From contig NZ_AEYW01000007.1 in NCBI RefSeq assembly GCF_000192475.1, positions 1 to 64,000 of the forward strand: DNA of 64,000 nucleotides, read 5' to 3'. The stretch is from Ruegeria conchae (GTDB taxonomy: Bacteria; Pseudomonadota; Alphaproteobacteria; Rhodobacterales; Rhodobacteraceae). The notes beneath the pieces were generated by a model that worked only from the letters and a program-made list of their open reading frames with translations, was not told the DNA's origin and made no database searches. Shown here in pieces: positions 52,510 through 62,463 of this stretch; position 1 is the stretch's first letter, and each line of letters begins with the position of its first letter. The translations under genes and the position numbers were made by a program.

Positions 52510-52684
52510 ATTCGTCTTAGCACTCCGTTAGGGGATCAGGGTCAAAGTTGGGATTGCACCTGGAACAGCAGGTGGCGCGAAGGCCACAGGGCGCGACGCA
52601 AAGGTCAGAACGACGGAATGCCCGCCGGTTCGGTGGGTCCAACATGGGCGTCGAAGGCGCTCGAACGCAAAGAGGATGACAAAT

Positions 52685-53932
52685 ATGTCCAGCATTCTGA
52701 CGAACAATGGCGCAATGGTTGCGCTGCAAACTCTCAAATCCGTAAACAAGAACCTGGCGATGACGCAGAACGCGATTTCGACCGGTAAAGATGTGGCGAC
52801 GGCCAAGGACAACTCTGCCGTCTGGGCTATTTCCAAAGTGATGGAATCGGACGTTAAGGGTTTCAACGCCATCAAAGACAGCCTGGCGCTGGGTGAATCC
52901 ACAGTGGCAGTTGCACGGAACGCTTCGGAAACGGTTACAGATCTGCTGAACCAGATGAAAGGCAAGATTGTTGCGGCACAGGAAGACAATGTCGACCGCG
53001 GCAAGATCAATGACGATGTGACGGCATTGCGGGACCAGATCGCATCGGTCGTAGGCGCGGCGCAATTCAATGGTCTAAACCTAGTCGATGGGTCGGCAGG
53101 TACAGCGTCCATTCTTGCGTCGCTGGATCGTGATAGCGCTGGAAACGTAAATGCATCATCAATTTCGGTTGCGAGCCAGGATTTGTCGACCGGCGGCTAT
53201 GCGTCGAAGGGGGTTCTGGCGGGGTCGGATAACGTAACCACCGACAATGATGCGGCCGGGTTCACAATGGATAAGTCCGGCGGTTCGGGTGATATCGTTA
53301 TCGACAGCTCGACTGACAACTTTGCTGCTGGTGACCAGGTGTCGATTACCATCGGTGACAAAGTTGCTTCCTATACGGTTCAAGCTGGAGATCTGGACCC
53401 GTCGGGCACCTACGACTCAGCTTATACTGATGCGATTGTCGCAGTTGGGTTGAAGAACCAGATTGATGCCTTGGGTATTACCGGTGTGGCTATCGACTAT
53501 GACTCCAGCGCGGCGGGTACGCTCTCATTCGTTACCGGGACTGCAACAGCGGGTTCCGACGCAGATCGCGATGTGACCGTTTCGGCGCAATTCACCAATG
53601 CCGGAGCAGGCGGTTTGGGTGCGTTGTCGTCGATTGACGTATCGACCGATGCAGGTGCCGCGGCAGCACTAGGAACCATCGAGACACTGATCAATACCGC
53701 GATTGATGCATCGGCCGCATTTGGTTCGTCGCAGGGCCGGATTGAAACCCAGAAAGAGTTCATCTCGAACCTGGCGGACTCGTTCAAATCCGGTATTGGC
53801 TCATTGGTCGACGCCGACATGGAAGAGACGTCGGCGCGGTTGCAGGCTCTGCAGGTGCAACAACAACTGGCGACGCAGTCTCTTTCTATTGCGAACCAGG
53901 CTCCGCAGTCCATCCTGTCGCTGTTCCGCTAA
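52685..53932 (+). CDS. fliC: Flagellin
   Basis: 415 residues. The N-terminal D0/D1 region reads SSILTNNGAMVALQTLKSVNKNLAMTQNAISTGK-like with the conserved NAIS and the later AQFNGLNL; the C-terminal D1/D0 ends in LQVQQQLATQSLSIANQAP and the final SILSLFR. The middle (about 150-330) is acidic, Gly/Ser/Thr-rich and variable, as expected for the exposed D2/D3 domains. Cysteine-free. The start at 52685 has GAGG 9 nt upstream; an ATG nine bases earlier is too close to it. A structured leader of up to 175 nt precedes it. Confidence 0.96.
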   Translation: MSSILTNNGAMVALQTLKSVNKNLAMTQNAISTGKDVATAKDNSAVWAISKVMESDVKGFNAIKDSLALGESTVAVARNASETVTDLLNQMKGKIVAAQEDNVDRGKINDDVTALRDQIASVVGAAQFNGLNLVDGSAGTASILASLDRDSAGNVNASSISVASQDLSTGGYASKGVLAGSDNVTTDNDAAGFTMDKSGGSGDIVIDSSTDNFAAGDQVSITIGDKVASYTVQAGDLDPSGTYDSAYTDAIVAVGLKNQIDALGITGVAIDYDSSAAGTLSFVTGTATAGSDADRDVTVSAQFTNAGAGGLGALSSIDVSTDAGAAAALGTIETLINTAIDASAAFGSSQGRIETQKEFISNLADSFKSGIGSLVDADMEETSARLQALQVQQQLATQSLSIANQAPQSILSLFR

Positions 53933-54009
53933 TTCAGGAACTCAGCCGGGGCGCGCGTACCGTGCCCCGGCCTTAACTGCCCGCTGATGGACAATCGGAA
54001 GGATTTCAA

Positions 54010-54384
54010 GTGACTCCGCAAACGCTCGCCCAACGCGCTTATGCGCAATCTGCTGCACCGACGCGAACGCCCCGGGATACGGAATATGAGGCGATATCCA
54101 AAATCACACATCGCCTAAAGTCTGCGTCAGCACGCATGGAAACGGATTTTAGCGCCTTCGTCCAGGCATTGCATGAAAACCGCCGGTTATGGAGCGTGTT
54201 GGCGACCGATGTTGCGGATGCTGATAATGCACTGCCGAACAATCTGCGGGCTCGAATATTTTATCTCGCTGAATTCACGGAACAACACAGCAGTCAGGTG
54301 TTGGGAAATAAAGCGACAGTAGAGCCGCTGCTTGAAATCAACATGGCAGTCTTGCGAGGACTGCGTCAAATGAGGGGGAATTGA
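54010..54384 (+). CDS. flaF: Flagellar biosynthesis regulator FlaF
   Basis: 124 residues from a GTG at 54010. The FlaF pattern is visible: AYAQSAAPTRTPRDTEYEAI near the start, FVQALHENRRLW in the middle and LLEINMAVLRGL at the end. FlaF promotes flagellin synthesis and secretion in alphaproteobacteria, opposing FlbT. It shares one base with the flbT start codon. Confidence 0.88.
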   Translation: MTPQTLAQRAYAQSAAPTRTPRDTEYEAISKITHRLKSASARMETDFSAFVQALHENRRLWSVLATDVADADNALPNNLRARIFYLAEFTEQHSSQVLGNKATVEPLLEINMAVLRGLRQMRGN

Positions 54385-54785
54385 TGGGCGGTCTGGTGCT
54401 AAAGCTTGCCCCAAAAGAGCGGGTTCTGATCAACGGTGTCGTCATCGAAAATGGTGAACGCCGCAGCAGATTTTCCATCATGACACCGCAAGCCAATGTT
54501 CTGCGTCTGCGCGATGCTATTCACCCTGAAGAGGTGAACACTCCAGTGCGTCGTGTCTGCTATGCAGCACAGCTTGTGCTGTCTGGTGACACAGAACCCG
54601 ATCAGGCGCGTCAGCAGTTGCTGCGACGCGTAGAGGAGTTAAGCCAAGTCTTTACAGATACCGATAGCCGCCGGGTGTTGGCCGATGCCACAGAAGCGTT
54701 GGTGGCCGAGCAATACTATAAGTGCCTAAAAGCGTTGCGCTCTCTATTACCGCGAGAAGAGCGGTTGATGGCGTATGAGCAATGA
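54384..54785 (+). CDS. flbT: Flagellin mRNA repressor FlbT
   Basis: 133 residues. LKLAPKERVLINGVVIENGERRS at the N-terminus is the FlbT signature; the C-terminal half is helical. In Caulobacter, FlbT binds the 5' leader of flagellin mRNA and promotes its decay; the long structured leader of the flagellin gene here would be its target. A GGGGGA box precedes the ATG at 54384. 4-nt overlap with the following gene. Confidence 0.92.
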   Translation: MGGLVLKLAPKERVLINGVVIENGERRSRFSIMTPQANVLRLRDAIHPEEVNTPVRRVCYAAQLVLSGDTEPDQARQQLLRRVEELSQVFTDTDSRRVLADATEALVAEQYYKCLKALRSLLPREERLMAYEQ

Positions 54786-55579
54786 CCTTTCAACCGGTCG
54801 TACCCACCGGTGGAATTGTGGGCTGGCGAATTCTTCAGCGGACGTATGACGCGCAACTGCAAAGTTTTTCAAACTCGTCGATTAATGAGCGTGAGACAGC
54901 GTATTTTCTGAAAAACATAGGAAATGTTCGCTCGGCTGAAGATCTGGTTGCTGATCGTCGCTTACTACAGATCGCCTTGGGTGCCTTTGGCCTCGAAGAT
55001 GATCTGAACAATCGGTTTTTTATACAAAAGATCCTGTCGGACGGTACTCAGGCGGAGGATGCATTGGCGAACAGGTTGGCTGACAACCGATATCGTGACT
55101 TTGCAAAAGCTTTTGGATTGGGGCCGGGTGAGATTCCAAAGACGGGTTTGGTCAGCGCGATGGAGAAGATCGCCGAAGATAATATGGCCGCCCGGTTCGA
55201 AATATCGGTTGGTGAATCCGATGAATCGGTGCGTATCGCACTATTCACGCAGCATGCCTTGCGCGAGATAGCTCAACAAGGTGGTAGTGAGAACAGAAAA
55301 TGGTTCGACCTTATGGGATTGCCACCATTGCGCAACATGATGGAAACGGCATTAGGCCTGCCCAGATCATTTGCACAGTTGGATTTAGACAAACAACTTG
55401 AAGTCTTTAAGGATCGGTTGCAACGCGCCACCGGATCCTCGGATCTGGCGCAATTTACGGACATAGAAGCCGTCGAAATTTTGACGGATACCTATCTGGC
55501 CCGCAGCCAGATCGCGCAATTCCAGAGTGTAACTTCTCCTGCGCAGACGGCGTTGATCCTGCTGGGTGGCGGGTTTTGA
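54782..55579 (+). CDS. DUF1217 flagellar-locus protein
   Basis: 265 residues, largely helical, with FLKNIGNVRSAEDLVADRRLLQIALGAFGLEDD near the N-terminus. DUF1217 proteins occur in alphaproteobacterial flagellar clusters and have no assigned step. Coupled to flbT by a 4-nt overlap, which supports a role in filament production or its control. A 7-bp inverted repeat (AACTCCG/CGGAGTT, 55585-55607) follows, and the rest of 55580-55731 shows nothing. Confidence 0.75.
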   Translation: MTFQPVVPTGGIVGWRILQRTYDAQLQSFSNSSINERETAYFLKNIGNVRSAEDLVADRRLLQIALGAFGLEDDLNNRFFIQKILSDGTQAEDALANRLADNRYRDFAKAFGLGPGEIPKTGLVSAMEKIAEDNMAARFEISVGESDESVRIALFTQHALREIAQQGGSENRKWFDLMGLPPLRNMMETALGLPRSFAQLDLDKQLEVFKDRLQRATGSSDLAQFTDIEAVEILTDTYLARSQIAQFQSVTSPAQTALILLGGGF

Positions 55580-55731: not shown

Positions 55732-57297
55732 TTAGATATCTGCAGAAGCTTGCAGTGCAAAAGAACTAATCGGTTGCGAAACGTTATGCAGCTTGATCTC
55801 TCCTAACGGGATGGCCTGTTTACAGGCGGGCTCGATATCGTGGGATACAACGATTCTGTGACCGGCTGTTTTGCCATATTCCCCTAGTCTGGCGGCGATA
55901 TTCGCCGCTTGTCCGATCACTGTGAAATCCAGCCGCTCTTGTGAGCCTACATTGCCGTAAGTAACACGACCATAGGCGACGCCGATTGAGCAGTCGCAAT
56001 GATAATCATTTTCGCCGTTGCGAAGCTCAGCCAGTTTCTCGACGATCTCAATCGCCGATAGCTGCGCGTTGGTCCGGGCTTTAGCGGCGTCGTCACCCGC
56101 CGGGAAAACAGCCAATACCGCGTCGCCGATGAATTTCAACACTTCTCCATCATGGTCGTGCACGATCCCCGATACTGTTTCGAAGAACGCGTTCAACAAA
56201 TCGATGTATTCATCGCGGCCCAACGTCTCTTCGAGCGCGGTTGAGTTGCGCAGATCGCAAAACATAATAGCCGCATCTATATCATCACCATCACCTCGGC
56301 GGATTTCACCGCCCAAAACCCGAGCGCCCGATCGTTTTCCAACATAGGTTTCAAGCAAAACCTGGGCGTTTTCGCGCTGCATGAAGACCTCGTAGAAGCG
56401 CGCGATTACGGAAGAGCACTCAAAAACCAGGCCAAGGTTTTCTGTTGTGAATCCATCTGGGTGATCACTGGTCAGGGTCAGGACGTTTATTCGCCCATCT
56501 GAAAAGGGTAGTGGCATGGCAACATAGTCTGTTGCCCCTTTCGCGCGCAGATCTTCGATGATCGGAAAACTGTTATGCGGATTGTCGTTGTTCAGGCGTT
56601 GACGCACGCCGCCCAGTCCGTTTGAGACGTGGCGCAGGGGGCTATTGGTAAAGGCAGGGTGATCGTGGATCTCGTAGGTCGGGGTGTGGGTCGAAATCTC
56701 GGCCGTGTCCTTTTCCCAGATGTAGTGTTTGCCTGCGATCAAAGGGTGCAGCGACCAGACCAGGATGCTAAGGCGTTGTATTGCGATGCCGTGTTCCAGC
56801 ATTTTCTCGGCCAGTGCTTTGGTGAAAGCATCGGGTGTTGCGATATCCGACGCTCCGCGCATCAACCAGTCGATCAAAGGCCCGCTGATATTGCCGTCAT
56901 CGGGTTGCCGAAGTTGGTTTTCTCCAAGGTCGATCCGCGTCGCCGTGTTGGGCATAAAGCCGATATGTCCTTGAATGGCTGCGCTTTCGGGAAAGGCATC
57001 TTCATAGGCCCAGATCGAGTTACTCAGGTGCTCTTCCGGCAGGCTGATGTCGTGATAGGTTGCGGTGCCCTTGAACGGACAGAATGTTTGCAACTCAGTC
57101 TCGGGGCTGAGTTCGACGCACAGGTCTTCACGCGGGATGTAAACCGAAGGGGGCAGCCGCGTTTCATACATGACCTTGGCGTTATGACTTTCGGCGAGCA
57201 GGATATCACCACGGTAGATCGCAATCCGCCCTTTTAACGGTTCAACCGAAATACCATAGCCTTTGACATTTGGTGTGGCATGGACGTTCATCTGCAA
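55732..57297 (-). CDS. DUF427 / class III nucleotide cyclase fusion protein
   Basis: 521 residues: an N-terminal DUF427 domain (about 15-115; YRGDILLAES and TELQTFCPFKGTATYHD), a middle region (about 125-320) that may be a GAF-like sensor, and a C-terminal class III cyclase domain (about 335-510). The cyclase has both metal aspartates (MFCDLRNST and FIGDAVLAVF), the adenine-type lysine before FIGD and LDFTVIGQAANIAARL, so it should be active and make cAMP. No membrane helix. It lies 84 nt downstream of the membrane winged-helix gene on the same strand. Confidence 0.8.
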   Translation of the reverse strand: MQMNVHATPNVKGYGISVEPLKGRIAIYRGDILLAESHNAKVMYETRLPPSVYIPREDLCVELSPETELQTFCPFKGTATYHDISLPEEHLSNSIWAYEDAFPESAAIQGHIGFMPNTATRIDLGENQLRQPDDGNISGPLIDWLMRGASDIATPDAFTKALAEKMLEHGIAIQRLSILVWSLHPLIAGKHYIWEKDTAEISTHTPTYEIHDHPAFTNSPLRHVSNGLGGVRQRLNNDNPHNSFPIIEDLRAKGATDYVAMPLPFSDGRINVLTLTSDHPDGFTTENLGLVFECSSVIARFYEVFMQRENAQVLLETYVGKRSGARVLGGEIRRGDGDDIDAAIMFCDLRNSTALEETLGRDEYIDLLNAFFETVSGIVHDHDGEVLKFIGDAVLAVFPAGDDAAKARTNAQLSAIEIVEKLAELRNGENDYHCDCSIGVAYGRVTYGNVGSQERLDFTVIGQAANIAARLGEYGKTAGHRIVVSHDIEPACKQAIPLGEIKLHNVSQPISSFALQASADI

Positions 57298-57381
57298 CCT
57301 CCCCTGGCCAAGCCCTTATATGATGGGCCTTCAGGGTGACGATTCCAAGATGCGCACACAGATTTTACCGCGGTGAAGCAG

Positions 57382-58083
57382 TCAGACCATCTGAATTACG
57401 TCTTTTTCGATCGACAACATGTAGCCTTTTTTGGCGATGTTTTTCACCAGCAATTCACTGACCATCTGATTGCCGAGTGCGTCCCTTAGGCGTTTGATAC
57501 GGGTGGCCCCAGCGGCTTCTTCGCAATCGACCACGTTCCGCCCTGAAATCATGGCTTCGATCTGCGCTCCGGACAGAACTTCGTCATCCAGCCGGGATTC
57601 GGCTAATACCGACAGGGTTTCCATTGCTGCGGGAGTTAGCCTGAAATCCATGTTGTTGAGGTAAACCGTGTTTTCCTCGCGGCTGATCAGCAGCGAGGTC
57701 ACCTGAATCCCGGTCCGCTCAATCTGCGCCATGCGGCGATTCAGCAGGACTAGCATCACCAGAAACACCAACGCGGTAATCAGCATGGCGCTGGCAAAGA
57801 CCAGCAGCACGAAGATCACCATGCGATAGCTGGACAGCGTATCGGCGAATGCTGTGCCGGATTGGGCCAATATTTCCAGCAGGCGGATTTCGGATTGTGA
57901 GGTCAGGTCAGACTCGACAAACAACCGCTCGACACGCGCGTTGAAAGCGTTCGCATCCGGTAGCGTCCAGAATAGGAAAACCGCTGCAGTCACCAGGATC
58001 GCGACGACTGCCGCTATCCCCAGACCAACCAGCCGAACCCCCGAGCGACGCGCTTCAGTAACGGAGATAGTATTTTCCGGCAT
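57382..58083 (-). CDS. Membrane-anchored protein with C-terminal winged helix
   Basis: 233 residues: a short N-terminal tail, membrane helix 1 (about 16-41), a periplasmic stretch (about 42-90), helix 2 (about 92-119) and a cytoplasmic C-terminal domain. The end (RIKRLRDALG, LLVKNIAKKGYML) resembles the recognition and wing segments of OmpR/CadC-type winged helices. The topology is the reverse of ToxR/CadC, whose DNA-binding domain is N-terminal. GGAAGG precedes the ATG at 58083. Its 5' end overlaps the preceding small gene by 29 nt. DNA binding is inferred. Confidence 0.6.
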   Translation of the reverse strand: MPENTISVTEARRSGVRLVGLGIAAVVAILVTAAVFLFWTLPDANAFNARVERLFVESDLTSQSEIRLLEILAQSGTAFADTLSSYRMVIFVLLVFASAMLITALVFLVMLVLLNRRMAQIERTGIQVTSLLISREENTVYLNNMDFRLTPAAMETLSVLAESRLDDEVLSGAQIEAMISGRNVVDCEEAAGATRIKRLRDALGNQMVSELLVKNIAKKGYMLSIEKDVIQMV

Positions 58084-58342
58084 TGGCCTTCCTTTGATCC
58101 AGTCCATTCGCCTCAAAAACGGTCATCACGTTCAGCAGGGTCCAGCCGTTTGATTTCAGCCGCTTTGCGACTTCGTTCTGGGCCGAGCCCTTATCGCAGC
58201 TTGAGACCTGCATGACGCCATAGTGCAGGCGCAAGGGATTGTCCTGCTTGGCTTTGTAGTCGGCATAGCAATCTGCCGCGATGGCCTGCGACCCAACCGA
58301 TATCAGGGCCGTCAGAGCCAGAGAAGAGAGGATCTGTTTCAT
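58055..58342 (-). CDS. Small secreted protein overlapping the membrane winged-helix gene
   Basis: 95 residues with a signal peptide (ILSSLALTALISVGSQAIA, cleavage near AIA-AD). The mature part has two cysteines (ADCYADY and VSSCDKG) that could form a disulfide. No family recognised. The 29-nt overlap with the next gene implies coupled translation, so the product may be the periplasmic partner of the membrane regulator. Confidence 0.6.
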   Translation of the reverse strand: MKQILSSLALTALISVGSQAIAADCYADYKAKQDNPLRLHYGVMQVSSCDKGSAQNEVAKRLKSNGWTLLNVMTVFEANGLDQRKANAGKYYLRY

Positions 58343-58518
58343 GGGCTGCATCCTGCGCATGGGTTGGGCGGATATTCAATAACCTCAGGGGGTTTGCGGT
58401 GCTGATATTGGATAACAGATTGCCGTTATTGCTTGTCTGGAGGGGGTGGTCGCAGTGTCGGGTTATCAGTTTCGCGGTCCGTCACGGGCCTGCCCCATCA
58501 TCCGAAAGGACACGTATC

Positions 58519-58998
58519 ATGCACCGGAAATTTATTGCTCTGATCATAGCCGTCGCCGTTGCCATCACCGGGATCTCAGCGTCACAGGCACGGGCAGCAG
58601 ATACCAGGGATATTCTCGGAGGACTGGCTGCAATCGCGATCATTGGTGCGGCGGTCAATCACTACCATCAAGAGAAGAAGCGTGACGAAGAGGCCGAGCG
58701 CCGCAAGCGTCATAAGAAGGCTGAAGCCAAGGCGGAAAAGGCTAGGAAAAAACATGCTGTTCGCCCGCTGCCAAAGCGGGTTGCTCGTTATGACTTGCCG
58801 CAACGTTGCCTGCGTACGTTTAATGCCTACTCGAAAAAGCGTCCGCTGCTTGGGCCGAACTGCCTGAAGAAGCACTATAAACATGCCGATAGCCTGCCAC
58901 ACCAATGCAAGGTTGGTTTCTGGAATGGTAAAAGGGTAAAACGGGCATACGAACCCGCCTGCCTGCGCCAGAAAGGATACCGCGTCGTTTACCAGTAA
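58519..58998 (+). CDS. Basic secreted protein of unknown function
   Basis: 159 residues with a signal peptide (ALIIAVAVAITGISASQARA), a hydrophobic glycine/alanine-rich segment (about 34-46), a lysine/arginine/glutamate helix (about 52-78) and a basic C-terminal domain with four cysteines (QRCLRTF, GPNCLKK, HQCKVGF, PACLRQ). AAAGGA precedes the ATG at 58519. Divergent from the small secreted gene at 58055. Not recognised; the cysteine spacing suggests two disulfides. Confidence 0.6.
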   Translation: MHRKFIALIIAVAVAITGISASQARAADTRDILGGLAAIAIIGAAVNHYHQEKKRDEEAERRKRHKKAEAKAEKARKKHAVRPLPKRVARYDLPQRCLRTFNAYSKKRPLLGPNCLKKHYKHADSLPHQCKVGFWNGKRVKRAYEPACLRQKGYRVVYQ

Positions 58999-61074: not shown

Positions 61075-62463
61075 ATGACCGAGACAACCGCCAGTCAATC
61101 TCGTCTGAGCAGACTGTTCTTCACGCAGCCGGACAATTATGACCTAGACAACAAGTACACCGAAGCTGCGCTGGAGCGAAATAAGCGTGAGGGTTTGGAG
61201 CTTGCAGTTCGGGCGCGTTGGATCGCAATGGCCTTTACGGCACTATTGCTGATTTACCTGAATCCCCACTGGGAGGTTCTCTGGTACCATTTCATTCTGT
61301 TGCTGATCTGCGCCAATGGTTGGCTGATCCGACGTGCGGGGCGCGTTGGTCAATCCCGAACAGAGCTATTTTTGATCTTCATTGATCTGCTGATCATGAC
61401 ATTGGGTATGATCGTTCCTAACCCGTTCAGCGACGACGTGCGGCCGCTGGCAATGCAGTATCGGTTCGACAACTTCCAGTATTTCTTCATCATTCTGGCT
61501 GCAGGAACTCTTGCCTATTCCTGGCGTACCGTCATCGCGATTGGTACTTGGACGGCATTCATGTGGACAGCAGGTTGGGTTATCGCATGGTGGGTCTCCA
61601 CGCCGATACCGGGGATCAGCGAGCGTGTATCCGAGGCCTTGGCAGGTTATCCAGACGTCGCAGAATTCATGGATCCCAACAGTTTCATGCCGACGCTTCG
61701 TATTCAGCAGGTGATTGTTTTTGTCATGGTTGCAGTGACGCTTGGTGTTTCGATGCGGCGCCTCAATCGCTTGTTGATGTCGAATGCCGGGCTTGAACGT
61801 GAGCGCGCGAACTTGTCGCGCTATTTCTCTCCGAATGTGGTTGATGAGCTGAGCCAGAACGATGAGCCTTTGAAGCAAGTCCGCAAAGAAGACATTGCGG
61901 TTCTTTTCATCGACATCGTTGGGTTCACCAAGTTTTCTGCAGGGCGCGATCCGTATGAGGTCATCGAGGTGTTGCGCGGGTTCCACGCGCGGATGGAGAC
62001 AGAGGTGTTTCGCCACCATGGAACGCTAGACAAGTATCTTGGAGACGGATTGATGGCTACGTTTGGCACACCGCTGCCGGGTGAATTGGATGCGAGCAAT
62101 GCATTGGCTTGTGCCCGGTCGATGGTCGATATGATCGACCGCTGGAATATTGATCGCAAACGCGCCGGTGAGGCAGAGATCCAGATCGGAGTAGGGGTTC
62201 ATTATGGCTCAGTTGTCCTGGGTGATATCGGAGCGAACCGGCTGGAGTTCGCCGTGATAGGCGATGCGGTAAATGTTGCTGCAAAGCTTGAGGCAATGAC
62301 GCGCGAATGCGCTGCCCGCATAATTGTCAGCGATGCATTGCGCGCCCAAGCGTTGCAAGAAACACCGAACTCAGAAGACTTGATGGCAGGATTTGAACAG
62401 CGGCCGGATCAGACGGTGCGAGGTGTCGCCGCCCCGATGGATTTTTGGGTGCTCCAAAAATAG
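61075..62463 (+). CDS. Membrane-bound class III adenylate cyclase
   Basis: 462 residues. The N-terminal membrane part has about six helices (roughly 47-215), then a short coiled linker (LERERANLSRYFSPNVVDEL) and a C-terminal cyclase domain (about 265-435). Metal aspartates are in LFIDIVGFT and YLGDGLMATF; LDKYLGDG supplies the adenine-selecting lysine and LEFAVIGDAVNVAAKLE the transition-state residues. Signal sensed by the membrane part unknown. Second cyclase gene within 7 kb. Convergent with alkB. Confidence 0.88.
   Translation: MTETTASQSRLSRLFFTQPDNYDLDNKYTEAALERNKREGLELAVRARWIAMAFTALLLIYLNPHWEVLWYHFILLLICANGWLIRRAGRVGQSRTELFLIFIDLLIMTLGMIVPNPFSDDVRPLAMQYRFDNFQYFFIILAAGTLAYSWRTVIAIGTWTAFMWTAGWVIAWWVSTPIPGISERVSEALAGYPDVAEFMDPNSFMPTLRIQQVIVFVMVAVTLGVSMRRLNRLLMSNAGLERERANLSRYFSPNVVDELSQNDEPLKQVRKEDIAVLFIDIVGFTKFSAGRDPYEVIEVLRGFHARMETEVFRHHGTLDKYLGDGLMATFGTPLPGELDASNALACARSMVDMIDRWNIDRKRAGEAEIQIGVGVHYGSVVLGDIGANRLEFAVIGDAVNVAAKLEAMTRECAARIIVSDALRAQALQETPNSEDLMAGFEQRPDQTVRGVAAPMDFWVLQK

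Follow-up and report, generated by a model that had tools for sequence, protein, structure and literature searches.

Can the parts of a ToxR-type envelope sensor be put together in reverse order, with the partner gene first and the DNA-binding domain last? The question is raised by two overlapping genes in the 64,000-nucleotide stretch of the Ruegeria conchae contig NZ_AEYW01000007.1 that was analyzed here (the window). A first-pass annotation, made from the letters, described a 95-residue exported protein whose gene overlaps by 29 nt that of a two-helix membrane protein with a C-terminal winged helix, and proposed that the two form an inverted ToxR/ToxS-like envelope sensor. Here the gene for the exported protein is called sec, that for the membrane-tethered regulator reg, and the divergent gene for a basic secreted protein, which shares their operator region, div (Table 1).

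Table 1. Features of the sec-reg locus, with positions numbered along the window.
Feature	Position	Strand	Remarks
reg, membrane-tethered regulator	57382..58083	-	233 aa, ATG start 58083
C-terminal OmpR/PhoB-type winged helix of reg, residues 128-226	57406..57702	-	Pfam, model, fold match
Predicted transmembrane helix 2 of reg, residues ~88-114	57742..57822	-	part of modelled helix 63-125
Predicted periplasmic loop of reg, residues 41-87	57823..57963	-	acidic; conserved
Predicted transmembrane helix 1 of reg, residues 18-40	57964..58032	-	hydropathy, charge; within modelled helix 6-40
sec, small exported protein	58055..58342	-	95 aa; export read from sequence
sec/reg overlap	58055..58083	-	29 nt
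reg ribosome-binding site AAAGGAAGG	58087..58095	-	inside sec frame
sec signal peptide, by eye	58274..58342	-	AxA before residue 24
Candidate operator box C, GTTATTGAATATC	58371..58383	-	holds -35-like TTGAAT
Candidate operator box B, GTTATCCAATATC	58404..58416	-	33 bp from C
Half-site A, GTTATTGC (GCAATAAC on - strand)	58425..58432	+	
div, divergent basic secreted protein	58519..58998	+	159 aa; shares operator region

The sec-reg gene pair and its distribution

Both open reading frames are as the first-pass annotation gave them, and the overlap between them is exactly 29 nt at 124 of the 135 loci carrying both genes, a count over two collections in which some genomes were entered twice. At the remaining 11 loci the overlap measures 11-32 nt in five and is absent in six, one of which is a wrong-strand match. 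The 29-nt overlap also occurs in two plasmid records. A purine-rich ribosome site precedes the reg start at 112 of 114 loci. Because the 29-nt overlap is fixed and the ribosome site is kept, the end of the sec frame and the beginning of reg place mutual constraints on their sequence. No sec match at E ≤ 0.01 was obtained at three of 138 loci, two of which (L116 and L124) have a diverged sec upstream of reg. The third is in genome G041, where reg is close to the end of a contig and sec was located on a different one.

Linkage of the two genes in relatives, which the earlier proposal presupposed, was borne out by a neighbourhood survey. The 80 closest named-genome loci contain sec in 80, div in 80, an RNase HII gene in 78 and a CcrM-like methylase gene in 76 cases, with four of the 80 loci containing 3.6 kb or less upstream. 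At the 28 most distant loci (L111-L138) sec was matched in 25 and div in only 7, the div search having used the window's protein as sole query, so that diverged copies may be missed. Loci L001-L030 and L031-L110 form two collections with genomes partly repeated, and counts that mix them are not independent. The unit fixed across the family is sec-reg, and div and the DUF427-cyclase gene downstream of reg are features of the closer relatives. As an observation the sec-reg pair is confirmed, in its genes, its conservation, the overlap, the fold match and the conserved local boxes.

A single reg match apiece was found in 315 of 394 genomes of the family, with identities of 69-100% among the matches listed (best of family genomes). 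When the 79 family genomes lacking reg were re-searched with a 22-row reg profile, none matched (0/79), though this search included no positive control. In the class as a whole, reg was matched in 5 of 385 genomes (E ≤ 1e-6), all within the family of the window, and sec matches the same five (E ≤ 0.001). A sec profile found no match in 62 of the 79 genomes without reg (0/62, the 17 less complete ones being omitted), and matched 7/7 reg-bearing control genomes, three of which had supplied a profile row. Among the best 80 of 554 reg matches, the named carriers are Ruegeria, Phaeobacter, Leisingera, Tritonibacter, Salipiger, Thalassovita and an uncultured Roseobacter, the top matches being Ruegeria at 97%.

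In the annotations consulted, neither gene has a functional label. NCBIfam holds no model that reaches its cut-off for reg or sec of the window, and two annotated Parasedimentitalea plasmid records label sec, reg and div "hypothetical protein". These plasmids, pQS-2 (L145) and pW43D (L146), of 92-111 kb, carry the CcrM-like methylase, RNase HII, div, sec and reg; in both Parasedimentitalea species the plasmid-borne block consists of core-looking genes. Literature searches found no description of the sec-reg pair, within the open-licence papers and the terms covered. The portion of PMC9836097 available to us contains nothing on the pair, and the words "winged helix" and "transmembrane" are absent from the main text of a Phaeobacter motility paper (PMC12363192).

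The first-pass annotation had suggested two candidate targets, div and the DUF427-cyclase gene. The former stood in part: div shares the boxes described below and is present at 80/80 close loci but at only 7/28 of the most distant, and we rejected it as a fixed part of the system. Its product has a signal peptide by eye, a hydrophobic stretch of small residues, a very basic Ala/Lys/Arg stretch and four cysteines in its C-terminal part, and reached no Pfam family at its cut-off. The DUF427-cyclase gene (55732-57297, - strand; DUF427 N-terminal, adenylate/guanylate cyclase domain C-terminal) does adjoin reg in 64 of 80 loci (within 1.5 kb downstream, same strand), but none of the eight best box scores listed for the window lies near it, and it was set aside as a conserved partner or target. 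A second cyclase-domain protein is encoded at 61075-62463. The end of a flagellar cluster (flagellin, FlaF, FlbT, DUF1217; 52676-55579, + strand) lies beside the locus. A flagellar link was also discarded: FlaF, FlbT and DUF1217 genes follow at only 35-36 of 80 loci, 75 of which contain more than 3.5 kb downstream.

Architecture of the two proteins and comparison with known systems

The winged helix that had been read in the C-terminal part of reg was recovered by structure prediction and fold search. Residues 147-223 match Pfam PF00486 (Trans_reg_C) with an E value of 1.9e-5 and 25.0 bits, just below the cut-off of 26.2, and 20 of the 22 aligned reg members match the same family at E ≤ 0.01 (best 3.2e-7). 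An AlphaFold model built from 22 sequences, of moderate confidence (pLDDT 77.8, pTM 0.46), consists of helix 6-40, helix 46-57 and a single long helix, 63-125, followed by a domain with strands 131-134, 139-142 and 145-148, helices 151-165, 172-180 and 189-202, and a wing formed by strands 213-216 and 220-223. Foldseek and VIA-align placed residues 127-228 among OmpR/PhoB-type domains. VIA-align gave Z 12.2 for RpaA (2.5 Å, 96 residues), 11.8 for PhoB, 11.3 for CadC (2.7 Å, 97 residues), 9.9 for ToxR and 9.8 for a TcpP transcription complex chain, matches that bear on the winged-helix domain of reg alone. The third-helix residues R195, K197, R198, L199, R200 and D201, like G220-Y221 in the wing, do not vary among the 22 reg members. 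Pfam gave neither a receiver-domain nor a LytTR match for reg at E ≤ 1. We consider it very probable that reg is a DNA-binding regulator, tethered to the membrane and carrying its winged helix at the C-terminus.

The cytoplasmic orientation claimed for this domain agrees with the predicted topology. In the means of 135 sequences, basic residues outnumber acidic ones at the N-terminus (2.66 versus 1.76) and after helix 2 (3.07 versus 1.39), while the intervening loop is acidic (3.72 basic versus 7.13 acidic). As this charge distribution fits, both ends of reg are predicted to lie in the cytoplasm. Over 38 sequences, the loop (residues 41-86) has a mean top-residue frequency of 0.77 compared with 0.79 for the winged helix, and the membrane helices are less conserved (0.55 and 0.68). 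That the loop is conserved like the DNA-binding domain suggests, at the level of sequence, that it is a constrained contact or sensing surface.

The sec protein appears to be exported as a small domain. By eye, its AxA site falls immediately ahead of the first of two conserved cysteines, 25 and 49, and a lipobox-like motif occurs in just 5 of 135 sec sequences. Two cysteines past residue 18 are present in 61 of 63 non-redundant sequences, and from their placement in the model a disulfide across the sec hairpin is plausible. The mature part is modelled as beta-beta-alpha-beta-alpha (pLDDT 86.1), with strands 25-33 and 38-46, helix 51-64, strand 68-76 and helix 81-91. Foldseek found no match to it in the PDB at E ≤ 0.001, the best VIA match to the PDB (Z 5.9, 2.5 Å, 51 residues) is below the meaningful level, no PDB sequence matched at E ≤ 1, and no Pfam family recurred among 29 sec members. 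By analogy with known systems, it is plausible that exported sec is the periplasmic partner of reg.

How does this architecture compare with regulators already described? The available part of a survey of transmembrane transcription regulators (PMC10269533) counts 50,302 proteins, of which 17% have two membrane regions and few have been validated by experiment. The class requires a DNA-binding domain in the same chain, which reg has by homology, and at least one transmembrane region, where reg has two hydrophobic stretches by hydropathy and model (PMC10269533); from sequence and model, reg thus fits the class. The nearest functional parallels are the co-component systems, which, in the part of PMC9214523 at hand, combine an N-terminal HTH and a single helix with a downstream partner gene that often overlaps. 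Like ToxR/ToxS, TcpP/TcpH and VtrA/VtrC, reg has a membrane-tethered winged helix of the OmpR/CadC type, and like the co-component systems in general it has an adjacent, overlapping gene for an exported or periplasmic partner, the sec signal peptide being assigned by eye (PMC9214523). In contrast to these three pairs, its DNA-binding domain is C-terminal and it has two membrane helices; a small loop takes the place of the periplasmic domain, and the partner gene, sec, lies upstream and is encoded first, whereas in co-component systems the regulator gene comes first (PMC9214523). Partner domains of the VtrA/VtrC type are lipocalin-like; sec, modelled as beta-beta-alpha-beta-alpha and with a best Z of 5.9, below the meaningful level, could have a fold of this or of another kind. 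In VtrA/VtrC systems the two proteins also form an obligate periplasmic complex, as sec and reg may do. With its order reversed, sec-reg lies outside the co-component class but, by analogy, may work alike.

The same reversal sets reg apart from the ToxR/CadC family layout of N-terminal winged helix, one helix and C-terminal periplasmic domain. E. coli CadC has the same winged-helix fold as reg (Z 11.3), but it places that domain at the N-terminus, ahead of one helix and a large periplasmic sensor. The first-pass annotation was therefore right to call the pair inverted with respect to ToxR, CadC and TcpP, the partner gene lying upstream, the DNA-binding domain being C-terminal and the helices numbering two rather than one. 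In OmpR/PhoB response regulators the winged helix is C-terminal, as in reg, but reg has no receiver-domain match and has membrane helices in its place.

The further claim, that no system of this build had been described, holds insofar as the open-licence literature yielded no description, but related layouts are known. Overlapping regulator and partner genes are known from the co-component systems (PMC9214523), and the LytTR protein HigX of Caulobacter (PMC13384398) shows that alphaproteobacteria have proteins whose C-terminal DNA-binding domain follows membrane helices. According to the sections of that paper available, HigX, like reg, is alphaproteobacterial and lineage-conserved, with membrane helices first and the DNA-binding domain last; it has a LytTR domain, four helices and no apparent periplasmic domain (PMC13384398), whereas reg combines a winged helix with two helices and its gene overlaps that of an exported protein. 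HigX is the nearest precedent we found for the helices-first order in alphaproteobacteria.

Tandem boxes between sec and div

Alignment of the sec/div intergenic regions revealed three conserved elements upstream of sec, namely half-site A and two GTTATYNRATAWC boxes, B and C. These divergent-promoter boxes are new, being absent from the first-pass annotation. Half-site A has the consensus GCAATAWC, and an A-like sequence is present in 105 of 116 intergenic regions, the 116 being the loci, out of 138, at which sec and div were both matched. By eye, the TTGAAT of box C stands about 18 nt ahead of CANNRT; a promoter and terminator scan of 57200-58700 found none.

With up to two mismatches allowed per box, the spacing of boxes B and C is 33 bp in 83 of the 116 regions and 32 bp in 25, and 8 regions are without the pair. 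Shuffled regions contained a pair at 33 bp in 0/2320 cases; as the shuffles were mononucleotide and the loci are related, this result speaks for the presence of the pair and not for independent events. Counted upstream of sec irrespective of div, the pair at 32-33 bp occurs at 113 of 135 loci, made up of 28/30 and 78/80 in the closer collections and 7/25 in the distant group (L111-L138). The boxes thus either characterize the closer relatives or, in the distant loci, have diverged beyond what the test recognizes.

A strict form of the motif has four matches in the window's genome against two in the control, and two of the four are the operator. In nine close relatives the locus accounts for 17 sites and another 7 lie outside it (9 rows), the control giving 8 rows. 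Across the ten genomes the strict motif is private to the locus, although a regulon with looser sites would escape this search. Since the motif stands above control at this locus only, it points to a dedicated local regulator, and reg, the one predicted transcription factor encoded by the three genes sec, reg and div, is the economical reader of the boxes. A large regulon was rejected, as strict-motif matches outside the locus are not above control in the ten genomes. For one motif copy (L150) the other genome of the genus has an equivalent, about as far from reg, and the gene downstream of L150 presumably resembles lolA; the coding sequence enclosing another copy (L147) resembles what we take to be a bacterioferritin.

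A proposed circuit and its rivals

From analogy, and from the privacy of the boxes, we infer a mechanism that comprises export of sec, the membrane topology of reg and its binding to DNA, contact between the two proteins, autoregulation, a signal and ownership of the boxes. We tentatively favour reading sec-reg as a self-contained envelope-sensing transmembrane regulator of inverted form that regulates itself, with sec as co-sensor or inhibitor. In this mechanism reg would be an inner-membrane protein with both termini cytoplasmic; the winged helix at its C-terminus would bind DNA from the membrane, and its 47-residue periplasmic loop and one long helix would relay a signal to the winged helix. 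Exported sec, as a small disulfide-linked domain, would act on the reg loop as co-sensor or inhibitor, and the 29-nt overlap with its internal ribosome site would couple synthesis of the two proteins. In the closer relatives reg would bind the tandem GTTATYNRATAWC boxes upstream of sec and thereby control its own operon and possibly div. It is possible, though somewhat doubtful, that the pair is in addition a family-wide cassette in which sec comes first and contains the reg ribosome site, with reg, in the closer relatives, reading a private tandem operator for both divergent genes.

We favour the autoregulating sensor because of the winged-helix fold, the invariant basic residues of the DNA-reading helix and the predicted topology, and because of the co-occurrence of reg and sec, the overlap with its internal ribosome site and the local boxes. 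It is weakened by the moderate confidence of the reg model and by the distant loci, which keep reg and yet have the box pair in only 7/25; there the boxes may have drifted or may be owned by another regulator. The form of the boxes weakens it further, since they are 7-1-7 inverted repeats with outer halves matching Zur boxes of the same genomes. Such repeats are found more often with Fur-family proteins than with OmpR-type domains.

Zur is thus a serious rival reader of the boxes, although we consider it unlikely that B and C are variant Zur sites, with zinc starvation inducing sec-reg, div or both, and reg acting elsewhere. The sec boxes share their GTTAT-N3-ATAAC shape with Zur boxes; the Caulobacter Zur motif is given as GTTA-N5-TAAC in the part of PMC4176598 available. 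In the window's genome GTTATTCCATATC is found at the divergent start of a Fur-family gene (beside an ABC ATPase gene) and a ZnuA gene, and the zur-znuA regions of 30 genomes contain TGTTATNNNATAACA-like boxes, 11 of these 30 regions (L191-L220) having two box-like sites 31-33 bp apart, a spacing that matches that of the sec/reg boxes. A Zur matrix scored box B at a mean of 14.0 (range 7.8-18.1, 29 genomes), the minimum of its own training sites being 13.3, and within the window box B has the best score (16.1) and box C the third best (9.3). Against Zur control, box C scores lower with this matrix (mean 11.8), YNR forms the centre of 56 of 58 sec boxes but of 0 of 40 Zur boxes, and the YNR form is above control at the sec-reg locus only. 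The centres of the 40 Zur boxes are RNY in 23, RNR in 12, YNY in 5 and YNR in none, some registers being ambiguous. Judged by sequence, the sec boxes and the Zur boxes form separate classes that share their outer halves.

A second alternative, which we regard as about as unlikely as Zur control, holds that sec and reg are merely translationally coupled, so that sec is a regulated envelope protein with a function of its own and reg senses membrane state, redox or a ligand without it. The pertinent evidence is whether sec changes together with the reg loop. Over the 51 rows left at more than 15% difference, sec/loop covariation gave a partial r of 0.437 (1/2000 permutations), but upon removal of seven outliers (L023, L113, L116, L119, L124, L136 and L137) r dropped to 0.133 (205/2000), and the same outlier-free test gave 0.303 for sec versus the winged helix (N 44) and 0.295 for sec versus RNase HII (N 30). 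Because the covariation is lost without the outliers and is exceeded by the winged-helix and RNase HII comparisons, it was not counted as evidence, and its loss weakens the favoured reading. Shortened sec sequences without the C-terminal AGxYYLRY motif occur in lineages L023, L113, L116 and L124. In L113 and L116 the reg loop is altered and longer, whereas in L023 and L124, where sec is shortened or diverged, it is not; these two lineages, with an intact loop beside a shortened sec, favour mere coupling and count against the favoured reading. The co-occurrence of sec and reg and their conserved overlap argue against it. Finally, that the reg winged helix has turned into a protein-binding domain and reg is no transcription factor is most improbable: in its favour, the Pfam match falls just below its cut-off and DNA binding by reg is a prediction, but recognition-helix residues R195, K197, R198, L199 and R200 and the wing pair are invariant throughout the 22 members.

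Returning to the autoregulating envelope sensor as the favoured reading, the privacy of the boxes makes the sec-reg circuit directly testable. If the reading is true, reg would be a core envelope-control circuit, unstudied as far as the open-licence literature shows, and ToxR-type logic, a membrane-held winged helix together with a small periplasmic partner, would exist with the order of its parts reversed. The sec-reg pair is possibly an undescribed cell-envelope sensor of marine relatives of Ruegeria.
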